DNA of 64,000 nucleotides. It comes from Dolomitihabitans soli (GTDB lineage Bacteria; Actinomycetota; Actinomycetes; Streptosporangiales; Streptosporangiaceae). A program made the position numbers and the translations under genes. Positions 34,854 through 41,724 of the stretch are shown one piece after another. The stretch is from NCBI RefSeq assembly GCF_022213955.1, contig NZ_JAKNTW010000011.1, positions 62,001 to 126,000 of the forward strand, given 5' to 3'. Under the pieces are notes generated by a model. It was not told where the DNA came from. It saw only the letters and a program-made list of their open reading frames with translations, and searched no databases. Every line of letters begins with the position of its first letter. Positions within the stretch are counted from its first letter, which is position 1.

Positions 34854-37800
34854 TCAGGCGCTGCGCCGCGTCGGTCCCGGGCCCGAACTGCCCGGACTGG
34901 CGTGCCACAGCCGCCGTGGCGGGGTGCGCACCCCCGGCGCGGGCCCGATGTCGGCGTACGGCGAGAGCCTGAACCCGTTGGCGTACTCGATGCGCCGCCC
35001 CCCGACCCCCGTGACCCGGGCGGGCGCCGCGTCCAGCAGGGCCCGTACGGCGGGCAGGCCCTCCGCCCGCCACACCGCGTCGAGGTCGACGAGGTTCCAG
35101 CAGTCGACGGCGCGAAGCGACACCGCCCTGGCCCCCGTGCGCCGGACCACTCCGCGGGCGACCATCAGCCACGAGCCGAAGACCGTCGCGGCGCAGTGTC
35201 CCTGCACCGACTCGAAGAACGTCAGGTCGACCGGGCCCGTGGAGTCGTCGAGAGTGGTGAAGATGACCCGCTGACCCGACTTGACGGCCGGGGTCTGCGT
35301 GGCCACCTTCACCCCGGCCACCAGGATCTCCGCGCCGTTGCGCTGGGCGAGCAGTTCCGTGGAGCGCACGACGCCGATCGCGTCGAGCAGCTCGTCGTGG
35401 AAGCTCACCACGTGCCGGCTGACGTCCATGTCGAGGATCGCCAGCTCCGCCTCCACCATCTCGGTCTCGGTCATCTCCGGCAGCTCCCCGGGCACGATGT
35501 GCTCGGTGAACCCGAGCGGCAGCTGCACCGACTCGCCCCTGACCCCTGAGGACGAGGCCCGTTCCAGCACCCCGACCTGGGCGACGAGGTCGCGCCTGGT
35601 CAGCTCGCCGGGCCGCCAGCGGGGACCGCCCGGGCTCAGGCCGTGCAGCGCGTCGAGCCCGCCGACCTGCACGATCCGCTCCGCGATCGGCCGCGAGGGC
35701 CGCGCACGATCCCAGAAGTCGGCCAACGAGGTGTACGGCCGGCCGGTGACCATGCGGTCGACCTCGGCCTCGCTGACGCCTCTGACGGCGGAGAAGGGCA
35801 CCCGCAGGGCGTATCCCCGCCCGAGTTCCGCGAGTTCCGCGAGCTCCGCGAGCCGCGGGTCCGCCTGCCGTACGAGATCCGCCGGGCGGACCCTGAGCCG
35901 CGCGGGCCCGCCGGTCTCCCGGCCCTCGGAGAGGTCGGCGGGAAGGTCCGCGGGAAGGTCGGCGGGGAGGTCGGCGGAGGGGTCCGCGGGGGGGTCTCCA
36001 GGGAGGTCCGGGGCCTGGGTCAGGTCCTCGGTTCTGGGGCCGATCCGTTCCACGAGCCACTGCCGGCCCGAGCGGTTGACGTCGAGGGGCAGGACGGACA
36101 CGCCGCACTGACGGGCCTCGTCGAGGATCACCCGCTGGGGGTACATGCCGGGCTCGTGGGTGAGCACTCCGGCGAAGAAGGCGGCCGTGTGGTGCCGTTT
36201 CAGCCAGGCCGACTGGTAGGTGGGCAGCGCGAACGCCGCGGCGTGCGCCTTGCAGAAGCCGAAGGCGCCGAACGCGTCGAGCACCTGCCAGGCCCGCTCC
36301 ACCGTCTCCCTGTCGTACTCCGCCCGCACGTGGACCTCCCACCAGACGCGGACCCTGGCCCGCCCCTCCGGGGTGTCGAGCGTCCGGCGGATCTGCTCCG
36401 CCTTGGACAGGCCGCACCCGGTCATCACATCGACGATCCTCAGGATCTGCTCGTGGAAGATGACCACGCCGTTGGTCTCGGCGAGCGCCGGGCGCATGTC
36501 GTCGTGCGGGTAGGTCACCGGCCGCCAGCCGTGCCTGCTCTCCAGGAAGGGGGTGATCATGTCGGAGTTGACCGGCCCGGGCCGGAACAGCGAGATGTCC
36601 ACGATCAGGTCGTGCATCGTGCGCGGCTCCAGCTTGGCCACGAGCTCCCGCTGGCCGGGCGACTCGATCTGGAAGCACCCGAGGGTCCGGCCCGTGCAGA
36701 TCATGTCGTAGGTCGCCCGGTCGTCGTGCGGGACGGCGTCGAGCCGTACGGCGAGCCCGTCGACCCGCTCGATCTCACCGAGCGTGTACGCCATGGACGA
36801 CTGCATCCGCACCCCCAGGACGTCGAGCTTGAGCAGCCCCGCCTCCTCCACGTCGTCCTTGTCGAACTGCGACATGGGGAACTCCAGCAGGCTGCGCTCG
36901 ACGGGGGTGCGGTCGCGGAGTCCGGCGTTGCCGATCAGCACGCCGCAGGGGTGCAGGGCGATGTGCCTGGGCAGCCCGTCGAGCTTCTCGGCGAGCCTGA
37001 ACACGGTCTCCAGCGCCCGGTCGTTCAGCCCGCTCTCGCGCAGCTCCGGCAGGTCGGACAGGGCGGCCCGGATCTGCTTCGCCCTGATGTGCGGGAACGC
37101 CTTGGCGATCACGTCGATCTCGTGCGGCGGCAGACCCATGGCCGCGCCCACGTCGCGGATCGCGCTGCGCGCCCGGTAGGTCTCCATCATCGACACGCAC
37201 GCGACCCGGCTCTCGCCGTACCGCTCGTAGATCGCGCGGTAGCAGTCGAGGCGGCGGGCGGACTCCACGTCCATGTCGATGTCGGGCAGCCCGACCCGGC
37301 CCTCGGACAGGAACCGCTCCATGAGCAGGCCGTGGTCGAGCGGGTTCACCTCGCCGATCCTGATCAGATAGTTGACCAGGCTGCCCGCGCCCGAGCCGCG
37401 GATCGAGCAGCGCACGCCCATCCCGCGGATCATGTCGGTGATCCCCGCCACCGCGACGAAGTAGCCGGACAGCTGCTTCTTCTCGATGACGGCCAGTTCG
37501 GCGGCGAGCCGCTCCCTGGCGTGGGTGGATCGTTCCAGGCCGCGCCGCGACAGGCCGTCGGCGCAGCGGTCGCGCAGCATCGGCACCGGGTCCCCGCCGA
37601 TCTCGGGCAGGTGCAGCCGGGGTGGGTCGTTCCGCAGGGCGAGCAGTTCCAGGGGATCGAGGGCGCACCGCTCCGCGAGGTCTCTGGTGGCCGACAGCAG
37701 GCGGCCGGCCCGCCGCGCGTCGCCGCCGCAGACCCGCGCGGCGACGCCGGCCATCTCCTTGTGGCTCTTGAGGTAGGCGTGCGAGGCCGAGCGCTCCAGG

Positions 37801-38447
37801 TGGCGGGGGTGCAGCGGGACCAGTTTGCGCGCCGCGTCGAGCACGTCGCCGACCTGGTAGTCGAACGGGTCGAGGTAGCGCACCGCGTTGGTCAGCACCG
37901 CGGGCACGCCGGCCGTCTCGGCCAGGGCGAGCATCCGGGACGCGGTGATCGCCTCGCGGTAGCCGTACTGGTCGACGAGTTCGACCGCGAGGTGCGGGAC
38001 CGTGGCGCGCCACGCCAGCAGCAGGCTCCTGGCCTGGTCGTCGCGGCGTTCGGCGGCGGCGAGCCCGACGTCGGAATCGGGGCCGAGCAGCACCACGAGC
38101 CCGTCCGCGTGCCGCCCGACCAGTTCCCTGGTCACCAGCGGCTCGCCCCGGTCGCCGGCTTGGTGTGCGGCGGTGACCAGGCGGCACAGCGCGGCCCAGC
38201 CGTCCGCCCTGGCGAGCACGGTGATCCGGCGGGCGGCGGAGTCGCAGGCCAGGTTCACCCCGATGACCGGGGAGATCCCGGCCTCCAGACACGCCTGGGC
38301 GTGCTTGACCGCGCCGTAGAGGCCGTCGCGGTCGGTCAGCCCGAGGATGTCCATCCCGTGCTCGGCGGCCCGCTGGACCAGGGCCCGGGGGAAGGCCGTG
38401 CCGTAGCGCAGCGAGTAGGCGGAGGAGACGTGCAGGTGAGCGAACAT
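34854..38447 (-). CDS. dnaE2: Error-prone DNA polymerase III alpha subunit
   Basis: This is the DnaE2 lesion-bypass polymerase of the actinobacterial SOS mutasome. It has 1197 residues, longer than the usual ~1070-1100. The PHP domain starts MFAHLHVSSAYSLRYGTAFP. The catalytic Asp pair is in LPDIDMD (~385) and the third Asp in LLKLDVLG (~540). Fingers and a C-terminal OB domain follow (VATQTPAVKSGQRVIFTTLDD). A low-complexity insert of LPAD repeats around residue 825 explains much of the extra length. Start ATG 38447 overlaps the DUF6504 stop as TGATG with GGGAC upstream. A GTG at 38456 is an alternative. Confidence 0.93.
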   Translation of the reverse strand: MFAHLHVSSAYSLRYGTAFPRALVQRAAEHGMDILGLTDRDGLYGAVKHAQACLEAGISPVIGVNLACDSAARRITVLARADGWAALCRLVTAAHQAGDRGEPLVTRELVGRHADGLVVLLGPDSDVGLAAAERRDDQARSLLLAWRATVPHLAVELVDQYGYREAITASRMLALAETAGVPAVLTNAVRYLDPFDYQVGDVLDAARKLVPLHPRHLERSASHAYLKSHKEMAGVAARVCGGDARRAGRLLSATRDLAERCALDPLELLALRNDPPRLHLPEIGGDPVPMLRDRCADGLSRRGLERSTHARERLAAELAVIEKKQLSGYFVAVAGITDMIRGMGVRCSIRGSGAGSLVNYLIRIGEVNPLDHGLLMERFLSEGRVGLPDIDMDVESARRLDCYRAIYERYGESRVACVSMMETYRARSAIRDVGAAMGLPPHEIDVIAKAFPHIRAKQIRAALSDLPELRESGLNDRALETVFRLAEKLDGLPRHIALHPCGVLIGNAGLRDRTPVERSLLEFPMSQFDKDDVEEAGLLKLDVLGVRMQSSMAYTLGEIERVDGLAVRLDAVPHDDRATYDMICTGRTLGCFQIESPGQRELVAKLEPRTMHDLIVDISLFRPGPVNSDMITPFLESRHGWRPVTYPHDDMRPALAETNGVVIFHEQILRIVDVMTGCGLSKAEQIRRTLDTPEGRARVRVWWEVHVRAEYDRETVERAWQVLDAFGAFGFCKAHAAAFALPTYQSAWLKRHHTAAFFAGVLTHEPGMYPQRVILDEARQCGVSVLPLDVNRSGRQWLVERIGPRTEDLTQAPDLPGDPPADPSADLPADLPADLPADLSEGRETGGPARLRVRPADLVRQADPRLAELAELAELGRGYALRVPFSAVRGVSEAEVDRMVTGRPYTSLADFWDRARPSRPIAERIVQVGGLDALHGLSPGGPRWRPGELTRRDLVAQVGVLERASSSGVRGESVQLPLGFTEHIVPGELPEMTETEMVEAELAILDMDVSRHVVSFHDELLDAIGVVRSTELLAQRNGAEILVAGVKVATQTPAVKSGQRVIFTTLDDSTGPVDLTFFESVQGHCAATVFGSWLMVARGVVRRTGARAVSLRAVDCWNLVDLDAVWRAEGLPAVRALLDAAPARVTGVGGRRIEYANGFRLSPYADIGPAPGVRTPPRRLWHASPGSSGPGPTRRSA

Positions 38448-38713
38448 CAGTCCCACGCCCTCATGAGCAGCCAGCCGCCGCCGGCGGTGTCGAACCGCAG
38501 CTCATAGGTGCCGACCTGTTTGTCGGGGCTCGCCTCTAGGCGCCAGAACCTGCGCTCGCCGGGGTCGTTCTCCGAGGTCTTCCACCATTCGCGGGCGACG
38601 ACCCAGTGGTCGAGCACTTGGCGTACGACGTAGAGGCGATCCCGCCACACGAACTGCGCGGGGTCACCGTCTCTGGTCCAGACCTCGATCGGGTCACCGT
38701 AAAGTCTGCTCAA
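38447..38713 (-). CDS. DUF6504 family protein
   Basis: This 88-residue protein begins MSRLYGDPIEVWTRDGDPA. It is Trp/Arg-rich, with HWVVAREWWKTSENDPGERRFWRLEA. Members commonly sit next to dnaE2 or imuB in actinobacteria; the role in translesion synthesis is unproven. The stop overlaps the dnaE2 start by one base. It is the first gene after the SOS box, 71 bp from it. The imuA'/imuB genes that usually flank it are absent from this window. Confidence 0.85.
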   Translation of the reverse strand: MSRLYGDPIEVWTRDGDPAQFVWRDRLYVVRQVLDHWVVAREWWKTSENDPGERRFWRLEASPDKQVGTYELRFDTAGGGWLLMRAWD

Positions 38714-38783
38714 GGCGCTTCTTCTCCCTGTGGCTCAGGCTTCTCTCTCGTGAGCCACCCGGGGGAAGGCGGGTGCTGCTACC

Positions 38784-38799
38784 TCGAACATATGTTCTT
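38784..38799 (-). promoter_or_regulatory. LexA (SOS) box upstream of DUF6504-dnaE2
   Basis: TCGAACATATGTTCTT matches the actinobacterial SOS consensus TCGAACnnnnGTTCGA at all but the last two bases. It is 71 bp upstream of the DUF6504 start. The divergent kinase gene starts 76 bp on the other side. Confidence 0.7.
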
Positions 38800-38874: not shown

Positions 38875-40671
38875 GTGAACAACCTAAGTCCGGATGACCC
38901 TCGCCAGATCGGGCGATATCGGTTGCTAGGGCGCCTCGGGAGAGGTGGTATGGGCACCGTCTATCTCGGCGAGGACGACCCGGGGCAGAAGGTCGCCATC
39001 AAGGTGATCAACGCCGAGTACAGCCAGCACGAGCAGTTCCGGATGCGCTTCCGCCGCGAGGCGGACGCCGCCCAGCGGGTCCGCAGGTTCTGCACCGCCG
39101 CGGTGCTGGAGGCCGCGCTCGACGGCGACCAGCTCTACGTCGTCACCGAATACGTGCCGGGGCCCAACCTGGAGGAGGCCGTGGCCGCGTCGGGGCCGCT
39201 GCGCGACTCCAGCCTCGACGCGCTCGCCGTCGGGGTGGCGACCGCGCTGACCGCCATCCACGGCGCCGGCGTCGTGCACCGCGACCTCAAGCCCTCCAAC
39301 GTGCTGCTCTCCCCGGTCGGCCCGCGGGTGATCGACTTCGGCATCGCCAGGGCGCTCGACTCGCTCGGCGGCGTCACCGGGACCGGCGAGCTCATCGGCA
39401 CCCCCCGCTACATGGCGCCCGAGGTGCTGCGCGGCGAGGCCGTCTCCCCCGCCTGCGACGTCTTCTCCTGGGCCTGCCTGGTGGCCTTCGCGGCCAGTGG
39501 CAACCCCCCGTTCGGCGGCGAGGCGCTGCACGCCGTGCTCTACCAGGTGCTCAACACCGAGCCGGTGATCGAGGGCATGGACCCGGGGCTGCACGAGCTG
39601 GTGGTCTACGGGCTGTCGAAGGACCCCGCCAGGCGGCCCACCGCCCAGCAACTCCTCGACCACATGGTCGGCCGGGCCGCCGCCCCCGAGCAGACGGCCC
39701 ACTCGGTCCAGGCCGCCTGGCAACAGCAGGCCCCGCCCCTCCAGCCGACCGCCCCCTGGCCCGGCGTCGCGGCCGGCCCGCCGCCGTATCCCCCCCAGCA
39801 CCTCGCACAGAATCCGGCACAGAATCCCCCATCGCCCGGCACGACGATGCGGCAGACCCTCGCCCCCACCCACCCCGGCGGCCCGGGACCGGCGGCCGTG
39901 ACGGGTCGCAGGAAGCTCGCGATCGGGGCGGTCGTCGCCCTCCTCATGGTGGGCGGCGCGTCCCTCGGGCTCTACAAGGTGCTCGGTGGAAGCGGGCCGC
40001 CCGAGGGTCTGGCGCTGCTCTACCAGGACGACTTCACCGCGACCGGCACCGGCTGGAAGGGCGGCACCTACACCGGGCCGCCGTACGGCAACTACGGCTA
40101 CACCCCCCAGGGGTTCTACGCCATGGACGTCACGGGCGGGGACCCGGTCCAGCGGGAGACCGCCCCCCTCCCCTACGTCCCGCAGCAGCCCGCCACCCCC
40201 AGCCCCGGCGCGACGCCCACGCCCACCACGCCGGAGCGCCTGCTCCTCGGGGTGGACACCGCCATCAGGAAGGGCACCACGGGCGTCGGCGAGTACGGCC
40301 TGTACTGCAGGGGCGCCGACGAGACCGACGCCACCCGCTACGAGTTCCTGCTCGACACCGCCGGCAACGCGCGGATCAGGAAGGTCCAGGAGAACGCGGG
40401 CGGCGACCTCGGCAAGGTGTCCATCGGCGGCGTGCCCGGCCAGGAGACCAAGCGGCTCCAGGCCGAGTGCACCGGCGACGAAACCGGCGTCACGCTGACG
40501 ATGTGGGTCGACGGCGACGAGGCCCTCTCGGTCACCGACGCGGACGCCCCGCTCGTCAACGGCGAGGTCGGCATATTGACCAGGGTCGGCGAGAAGAGCA
40601 CGGCGACGCTGAAGGCGTCCTTCGACAACTTCACCGTGCACGGGCCCAAGCCGGGGACGAAGAGCCCCTGA
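38875..40671 (+). CDS. Membrane Ser/Thr protein kinase (PknB-type) with extracytoplasmic sensor-like domain
   Basis: This is a eukaryote-like kinase of 598 residues. The kinase domain (~13-262) has LGRGGMGTVYLG, the ATP Lys in VAIKVI, catalytic HRDLKPSN (~139), DFG in VIDFGIA (~160) and activation segment GTPRYMAPE. A Pro/Gln-rich linker (~285-340) leads to a single membrane helix (IGAVVALLMVGGASLGLY, ~350). The outside part (~375-595) is a predicted beta-sandwich resembling DUF1080/LamG-like folds, with a Pro/Thr-rich loop. It lacks PASTA repeats. The start is GTG 38875. Signal and targets are unknown. Confidence 0.9.
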   Translation: MNNLSPDDPRQIGRYRLLGRLGRGGMGTVYLGEDDPGQKVAIKVINAEYSQHEQFRMRFRREADAAQRVRRFCTAAVLEAALDGDQLYVVTEYVPGPNLEEAVAASGPLRDSSLDALAVGVATALTAIHGAGVVHRDLKPSNVLLSPVGPRVIDFGIARALDSLGGVTGTGELIGTPRYMAPEVLRGEAVSPACDVFSWACLVAFAASGNPPFGGEALHAVLYQVLNTEPVIEGMDPGLHELVVYGLSKDPARRPTAQQLLDHMVGRAAAPEQTAHSVQAAWQQQAPPLQPTAPWPGVAAGPPPYPPQHLAQNPAQNPPSPGTTMRQTLAPTHPGGPGPAAVTGRRKLAIGAVVALLMVGGASLGLYKVLGGSGPPEGLALLYQDDFTATGTGWKGGTYTGPPYGNYGYTPQGFYAMDVTGGDPVQRETAPLPYVPQQPATPSPGATPTPTTPERLLLGVDTAIRKGTTGVGEYGLYCRGADETDATRYEFLLDTAGNARIRKVQENAGGDLGKVSIGGVPGQETKRLQAECTGDETGVTLTMWVDGDEALSVTDADAPLVNGEVGILTRVGEKSTATLKASFDNFTVHGPKPGTKSP

Positions 40672-40764
40672 CCGCGAAACTCATGACCGCGCGGGAACAA
40701 CGTGTGGCCCCGGCGAGGTTGGGCAAGACCGTAACGCCGTCTCGATCAAGGGAGTCCAGAAGCG

Positions 40765-41724
40765 ATGCGAGCCATAGTCGTCACCGCCGCAGGCGGGCCG
40801 GAGGCGCTCGAGTACACCGAGCGCCCCACACCCGTTCCCGGCCCCGGTGAACTGCTGGTCGACGTGGCCGCGGCCGGCGTCAACTTCATCGACGTCTACC
40901 AGCGCATGGGCCGCTACCCGTTGCCGCTGCCGTTCGTGCCGGGCAACGAGGGGGCGGGCACCGTCTCGGCCGTGGGCGAGGACGTCACCGAGTTCGCCGT
41001 GGGCGACGGGGTGGCCTGGTCCAGCGTGCTCGGCAGCTACTCCGAGCAGGTCCTGGTGCCGGCCACCAAGGCGCTGCGGGTCCCGGACGGCCTCCCTCTC
41101 GACGAGGCCGCGGCCCTGCCCCTGCAGGGCATGACGGCCCACTACCTGACCCGTTCGGTGCATGAGGTGAAGCCGGGCGACAACGTGCTGGTCCACGCGG
41201 CGGCGGGCGGCATGGGCCTGCTGCTGGTCCAGATCGCCAAGATGTACGGCGCGCGCGTCTTCGGCACCGTCTCCACCGAGGCGAAGGAGCTGCTCGCCCG
41301 GCAGGCGGGCGCCGACGAGGTGTTCCGCTACGAGGGGTTCGCCGACGCGGTGAAGGACCTGACCGGCTCGGGCGTCGACGTCGTCTACGACGGCGTGGGG
41401 GCGACCACCTTCGAGGGCAGCCTCTCCTCCCTGCGCCCCCGCGGCATGATGGCCCTGTACGGCGGAGCCAGCGGCCCGGTGCCCCCGATCGACCCGATGG
41501 TGCTCAACCAGAAGGGCTCCCTCTTCCTCACCCGCCCGACGCTCATCCACTACATCGCCACCCGCGAGGAGCTGACCTGGCGCGCCTCCGACGTCTTCGA
41601 GTGGGTCGCCTCGGGCAAGGTGAAGGTCACCATCTCCAGCCGCTACCCGCTGGCCGACGCCCGCAAGGCCCACGAGGATCTGGAGGCGCGCCGTACGACC
41701 GGCAAGCTGCTGCTCATTCCGTGA
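40765..41724 (+). CDS. qor: NADPH:quinone oxidoreductase (zinc-independent MDR)
   Basis: This quinone reductase has 319 residues. It begins MRAIVVTAAGGPEALEY and has NFIDVYQRMGRYPLPLPFVPGNEG. NADPH-binding HAAAGGMGLLLVQIAKMYGA (~147) is typical of the QOR branch. No structural zinc Cys cluster is seen. ATG 40765 has AAGGGAGTCC upstream. The last 11 bp overlap the PucR gene's end from the opposite strand. Confidence 0.9.
   Translation: MRAIVVTAAGGPEALEYTERPTPVPGPGELLVDVAAAGVNFIDVYQRMGRYPLPLPFVPGNEGAGTVSAVGEDVTEFAVGDGVAWSSVLGSYSEQVLVPATKALRVPDGLPLDEAAALPLQGMTAHYLTRSVHEVKPGDNVLVHAAAGGMGLLLVQIAKMYGARVFGTVSTEAKELLARQAGADEVFRYEGFADAVKDLTGSGVDVVYDGVGATTFEGSLSSLRPRGMMALYGGASGPVPPIDPMVLNQKGSLFLTRPTLIHYIATREELTWRASDVFEWVASGKVKVTISSRYPLADARKAHEDLEARRTTGKLLLIP

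Follow-up and report, generated by a model that had tools for sequence, protein, structure and literature searches.

A putative LexA-controlled DUF6504-dnaE2 operon with a proposed standalone ImuB-C partner in a genome lacking detectable imuA' and imuB

In many actinobacteria the SOS mutator is DnaE2, for which ImuA' and ImuB were long assumed to be necessary, as recounted in passages of PMC12926913. How could a dnaE2 gene work that has neither of them at its side? The question is raised by a locus in the 64-kb stretch of DNA analysed here (the window), in which a small DUF6504 gene adjoins dnaE2. We propose, with a probability of about 0.78, that the two genes form a LexA-controlled operon encoding an ImuA'/ImuB-independent error-prone polymerase together with a standalone ImuB C-terminal domain (ImuB-C).

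The dnaE2 gene occupies 34854-38447 on the minus strand and encodes, from an ATG at 38447, an error-prone C-family polymerase of 1197 aa; the listed open reading frame opens upstream, at a GTG at 38456. The DUF6504 gene (38447-38713, minus strand; TTG start, 88 aa; PF20114 with E=6.4e-18 and 65.4 bits, cutoff 24.2) precedes it, and inspection of the sequence bears out the coupling by TGATG that the earlier note had described, as the DUF6504 stop and the dnaE2 start overlap in these letters. A LexA box claimed ahead of the pair is likewise there: a perfect palindrome, GAACATATGTTC, read in the sequence at 38786-38797 (TCGAACATATGTTCTT with its flanks, 38784-38799). It lies 72 bp before DUF6504, within a 161-bp gap on whose other side, 77 bp beyond the palindrome, starts the divergent Ser/Thr kinase gene that had also been noted (38875-40671, plus strand; PF00069, 1e-45). 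The palindrome is the single exact match to GAACN4GTTC in the window, and this site is also the one place in the genome of 10.83 Mb where CGAACRTRTGTTC is found, with no occurrence of a backward-read control pattern. We take GAACN4GTTC to be the LexA box consensus for the site at 38786-38797. This use is consistent with PMC9380542, in parts of which LexA control is demonstrated in S. venezuelae and the consensus is given as tCGAAC-N4-GNNCGa, which the operator matches except at the last two bases. By its operator, the window locus would belong to the LexA (SOS) regulon.

Boxes of this kind accompany DUF6504 at other loci. Of 169 DUF6504 loci, 165 have an exact GAACN4GTTC in the 350 bp ahead of the gene, compared with 0.27% of mononucleotide shuffles, and with up to one mismatch allowed the figures are 168 of 169 and 6.5%; after identical upstreams were merged, 145 of 149 carry an exact box, three have one mismatch, and one has 36 bp of upstream sequence only. 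The kinase adjoins DUF6504 in some genera only: among the named loci it was found in an upstream-gene cluster of 6, and the largest cluster, of 20 loci, represents another gene (approximate counts, as the simple gene caller misses or mis-starts genes). Because the gene upstream of DUF6504 changes between the named loci and the box and DUF6504 remain paired, the divergent kinase is probably a bystander and not part of the module; retention of the box when the upstream neighbour differs indicates that the box belongs to DUF6504 and not to the kinase. The kinase was also considered as a functional partner, which is unlikely given that the LexA box travels with DUF6504 and the adjoining gene differs. 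In several genomes the kinase and another gene cluster recur jointly beside DUF6504, and in the window (38875-41724) the kinase is followed by a quinone-oxidoreductase-like gene, named by eye. Five genomes (G031, G054, G026, G067 and G107) hold a more divergent DUF6504 copy (L176, L179, L183, L185 and L187) with an exact LexA-type box just 32-35 bp upstream and no kinase match in the locus.

The earlier note had allowed that ImuA' and ImuB might lie elsewhere in the genome, and had singled out a second SOS locus with both, in conserved genomic partnership, as the observation that would tell against its finding; we searched the genome and found neither gene. The best match to the ImuA' model NF058630 in the whole genome, at C17:226961, a locus with a RecA frame, scored 24.8 bits, the cutoff being 65. 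The Y-family model PF00817 returned one match genome-wide, a protein of 412 aa whose IMS, IMS_C and thumb domains mark it as a canonical DinB; an ImuA'-ImuB-DnaE2 cassette, whole or split, was not found in this genome. The ImuA' test works in this lineage, since 20 of the 150 genomes in our sample of the order pass the cutoff, all with at least two IMS matches. It is therefore hardly credible that imuA' and imuB exist and were missed through assembly gaps or divergence: the assembly is split into 81 contigs, but it is 99.99% complete, and set against the 20 positive genomes this one has no ImuA' match above cutoff and a single IMS match. Loss of both genes in an assembly gap is accordingly unlikely. 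Long frames that end in DUF6504 (L039, L047 and L050) were inspected as possible hidden ImuBs and rejected, being without a Y-family domain. The statement that the usual partners are missing holds for imuA' and imuB, neither of which was detected in the genome; it does not hold for all of ImuB, as DUF6504 itself is related to the ImuB C-terminal domain.

This relationship comes from profile comparisons. PF20114 matched the Rhizobium plasmid ImuB at residues 428-498 (4.4e-4, with a score of 20.9 bits that is short of the 24.2 cutoff) and gave no match in the Kitasatospora ImuB in the same search. Our own profile of 168 DUF6504 loci reached 3.5e-6 with the Rhizobium ImuB (five sequences searched), was weak with that of Kitasatospora (sequence E-value 1.4e-4, from two domains at 0.002-0.003 of which just one is C-terminal) and was not significant in HMMER with three ImuBs of the order. 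In hhalign, DUF6504 against five full ImuBs gave E=1.4e-4 and a probability of 52.7, the match displayed being that of Rhizobium; against four actinobacterial ImuB tails alone, E was only 0.12. By profile comparison, then, DUF6504 is a standalone form of the ImuB C-terminal domain, with homology found for one Rhizobium ImuB and weak, or not significant, for the tails of the four actinobacterial ImuBs. The assignment rests on the profile results given here, since no paper that names DUF6504 was found among open-licence PMC papers (supplements excluded), and it agrees with the ImuB-C family as described in parts of PMC3765255. An AlphaFold2 model of DUF6504 (pLDDT 92.9, pTM 0.82) has six strands, consistent with the beta structure of that family; passages of PMC12926913 depict ImuB-C as a beta-barrel predicted to contact the PHP domain of DnaE2 in the mycobacterial complex. 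Foldseek comparison of the model with the PDB yielded a best E of 0.31 and nothing at 0.001, which fits the statement in PMC12926913 that no close structure was found, and the DUF6504 profile against PDB sequences gave a best E of 0.39. In a control search of 14 well-known genomes with PF20114, one matched, that of Caulobacter.

The window DnaE2 contains PHP, Pol3-alpha and finger domains. Its top NCBIfam match is 'error-prone DNA polymerase', at 630.7 bits below the cutoff of 939, and it passes the PolIII-alpha superfamily model TIGR00594 (527.9, cutoff 434.35). The closest named DnaE2s, at 80-81%, are those of Spongiactinospora (Streptosporangiaceae), in a comparison that may omit records very near the genome of the window. 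When 28 C-family proteins were placed in a tree, the window DnaE2 fell in a 21-row clade (support 100/100) that also takes in DnaE2s from Streptosporangiaceae, Actinomadura, Geodermatophilaceae and other groups, as well as the DnaE2 of a Streptomyces plasmid, where the following gene encodes Y-family C-terminal domains; five DnaE2s adjoining imuA/imuB form a separate clade (100/99). The tree tool warned of long branches for the Rhizobium and Streptomyces rows, L147 and L148. We call members of the 21-row clade B-type, a label that follows PMC12926913 for a branch defined by our own 28-row tree. On this phylogeny, the window DnaE2 is outside the ImuA'/ImuB-linked branch, and it is also apart from the two DnaE1s of the same genome. 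These DnaE1-type genes (L033 and L034, at C36:72810-75347 and C5:86591-89125) are sisters in the tree, and both encode QDSLF.

Where DnaE1 has its clamp motif QDSLF, the window DnaE2 carries at residue 975 a clamp-type motif of its own, QLPLGF. Such a Q-hydrophobic motif occurs at this place in 76 of 87 B-type DnaE2s and in none of nine ImuB-linked ones, against a background of 63 of 2552 40-residue windows of B-type proteins, the motif's own place included. The 11 B-type proteins without the motif as defined include seven of Actinomadura and the Streptomyces plasmid copy, and most of the 11 have QLPL or QLAL with no fitting residue after it. The window DnaE2 retains the PDIDMD motif, and in the PHP pattern H-x-H-x-H it has a residue other than His at the third position. 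QLPLx/QLPLxL in some actinobacterial DnaE2s was previously reported, in parts of PMC3919608; that the clamp-type motif divides DnaE2s by their linkage to ImuB is what we infer here from sequence.

One could suppose that the operon is a decaying relic and that a partnerless DnaE2 does little, in keeping with the absence of ImuA' and ImuB, with the incomplete PHP pattern (yet the PHP domains of DnaE2s are usually inactivated, according to passages of PMC12926913) and with an S. coelicolor dnaE2 mutant that showed no phenotype in the portion of PMC3919608 concerned. We consider this very improbable: the catalytic-type motif, the clamp-type motif, the box and the operon are conserved across genera, and DUF6504 is under purifying selection in the groups with DnaE2 (dN/dS of DUF6504 0.08-0.30).

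The pairing of the two genes recurs, in counts in which related species are not independent. In the order sample of 150 genomes, DUF6504 is present in 143 and a B-type DnaE2 in 90, by a score above 600 bits, a threshold set by this analysis; DUF6504 lies within 3 kb of at least 56 of these 90 DnaE2 genes. Among the matches listed, the other 34 are without DUF6504 alongside, 17 of them belonging to genus g3 and six to g13, and two members of g7 being apparent contig splits. In a class sample of 98 genomes, 49 have a B-type DnaE2 (from a score of about 590 bits upwards, with one further genome counted in which the gene is in two pieces), 47 have DUF6504, 42 have both and 37 have them adjacent; five of the seven B-type genomes without DUF6504 are all the sampled members of family f20. 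At one locus (L196:3227-9043, genome G001), a standalone DUF6504 gene with an exact box stands ahead of imuA', imuB and dnaE2, so standalone ImuB-C and ImuB can share one locus.

The suggestion in the earlier note that DnaE2 functions with other partners therefore gains from two sides, as DUF6504 is related to ImuB-C and the DUF6504-dnaE2 pair both recurs and has been described. Solo ImuB-C with DnaE2 'without' DinB is found in parts of PMC3765255, and passages of PMC12926913 define a DnaE2B-[ImuB-C] module of Actinobacteria with Arthrobacter alpinus as a named example; our locus is a further member of this known arrangement. It shares with the module a DnaE2 outside the ImuA/ImuB branch, a linked standalone ImuB-C gene and a genome without ImuA/ImuB, and comparison with the published description revealed no essential difference. 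The mycobacterial ImuA'-ImuB-DnaE2 mutasome has in common with it SOS-type control of DnaE2 and the ImuB-C domain, whereas here there is no ImuA' and no Y-family part of ImuB, and the DnaE2 belongs to a different branch and carries a clamp-type motif itself. The Streptomyces DnaE2B-iPolY system (scDinB2; parts of PMC12926913 and PMC6511836) is likewise without ImuA'/ImuB, and the window DnaE2 and the Streptomyces plasmid DnaE2 share a branch; the partner there is an inactive Y-family protein, whereas here it is ImuB-C.

We envisage that DNA damage would lead to RecA-driven cleavage of LexA, which would release the DUF6504-dnaE2 operon and induce both genes. ImuB-C, a small protein of beta structure, may then dock on DnaE2 as a targeting or activating subunit, and DnaE2 may bind the sliding clamp in cis through its own QLPLGF motif; given that motif, the clamp-binding part of ImuB would be dispensable. 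RecA, the single DinB and HEPN_SAV_6107 are candidate partners in trans; the genes for all three have an exact LexA-type box of their own in this genome. Lineages that possess the ImuB tail alone put the question of what that tail does in direct form, and the lack of ImuB together with a clamp-type motif in DnaE2 offers a clean, testable answer.

DnaE2 cannot be the sole role of DUF6504, since 43 of the 48 order genomes in which no DnaE2 was detected retain the gene. These 48 are what is left of 60 genomes without a B-type DnaE2 after 12 were set aside, namely 11 in which ImuA' passed its cutoff and one, G006, that is 77% complete and has an A-like DnaE2 score; four candidates were scored per genome, and absence was judged by score. 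Loci from 18 of these 43 genomes, 19 in all, were examined for boxes: 18 loci have an exact box and the other has one mismatch. For five loci of the DnaE2-free genera g14 and g4, dN/dS of DUF6504 is 0-0.27 across ten pairs; a second DnaE2-free group yielded one uninformative pair, without synonymous changes. The persistence of SOS-boxed DUF6504 without DnaE2 may be a new extension of the published picture. It also lends itself to the idea that ImuB-C is a general SOS adaptor, serving DnaE1, DinB or other repair, and that it shares an operon with DnaE2 by chance, and in parts of Aravind et al. 2013 solo ImuB-C is associated with more than one repair system. We regard this as possible and less probable than a dedicated pairing, considering that, of the 47 class-sample genomes that carry DUF6504, 42 also have a B-type DnaE2, adjacent in 37.

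It is rather unlikely that the ImuB-C-DnaE2 pair is only part of a larger mutasome whose scaffold is an active DinB, with RecA, and whose SOS loci are dispersed in this genome. The sole DinB does have an exact LexA-type box, 27 bp ahead of the start listed for it, and a tail, AMDKAVRRFGPDAV, that resembles the RecA N-terminus ALAQIERQFGKGSV, but this resemblance was judged by eye only, and dinB lies on contig C17, far from dnaE2 on C1. Passages of PMC12926913 describe a DnaE2B group in which ImuB-C and RecA accompany an active PolY. In six loci within L121-L145 (L121, L126, L127, L130, L140 and L142), dinB starts 4.5-6.5 kb after DUF6504, behind dnaE2, and in three more (L134, L135 and L143) at about 9 kb; L130, L140 and L142 share upstreams with other loci in the set. 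Against this, a Y-family match is present in 148 of the 150 order genomes regardless. The first six loci have the gene set DUF6504-HEPN-dnaE2, with dinB shortly after dnaE2.

The reading of the operon as a DnaE2-ImuB-C unit leaves room for a further component, HEPN_SAV_6107. Of the 36 class-sample genomes that have both DUF6504 and HEPN, 32 have the two within 1 kb of each other, and DUF6504, HEPN and dnaE2 occur together in 26 of 98 genomes, with HEPN in the middle and on the same strand in all 26. For A-type DnaE2 (by score), HEPN is within 4 kb on the same strand in six of 31 genomes with both; four of the six were examined, and L231 has the order box-HEPN-imuA'-imuB-dnaE2, and in L232, L233 and L234 HEPN has its own exact box. 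HEPN_SAV_6107 is found in 98 of the 150 order genomes. In the genome studied here, it is on contig C17, apart from dnaE2, and GAACCTGTGTTC lies about 260 bp ahead of its coding match. Of the 98 order loci, 30 were examined, away from dnaE2: an exact box lies within 400 bp in 26 of them, and every one has a box with at most one mismatch, compared with 0.13% of shuffles and no exact box in 146 control windows taken from these loci. A tie to DnaE2 only is disfavoured, as HEPN is present in 75 class genomes, 38 of them with a B-type DnaE2, and is missing from 52 of 150 order genomes, some of them B-type carriers such as G005 and G023.

No paper linking DnaE2 and HEPN in actinobacteria was found among open-licence PMC papers (supplements excluded). 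SAV_6107 has one mention in that literature, in a HEPN survey that lists it as being without the conserved motif and in which dnaE2 and ImuB are absent; no HEPN appeared among the matches listed for LexA, SOS and ImuB in open-licence PMC, and the terms LexA and HEPN are absent from the main text of PMC12926913. The HEPN link to DnaE2 may thus be a new extension and, if true, would add a component not connected with DnaE2 in the literature found. Since HEPN lies between DUF6504 and dnaE2 in many lineages, stands beside or at the head of imuA'-imuB-dnaE2 in others, and has its own boxes when apart, as in this genome, we tentatively suggest, short of an even chance, that it is an SOS-controlled third component or regulator of both types of DnaE2 mutasome; together with the persistence of ImuB-C without DnaE2, this would make the polymerase the exchangeable part of an SOS module. 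What deserves following up is the HEPN link and the occurrence of SOS-boxed ImuB-C without DnaE2. Many of the 30 order loci have paired boxes about 40 bp apart before HEPN, as at L146:1150, the C17 locus of this genome, where one box is exact and one has a mismatch.
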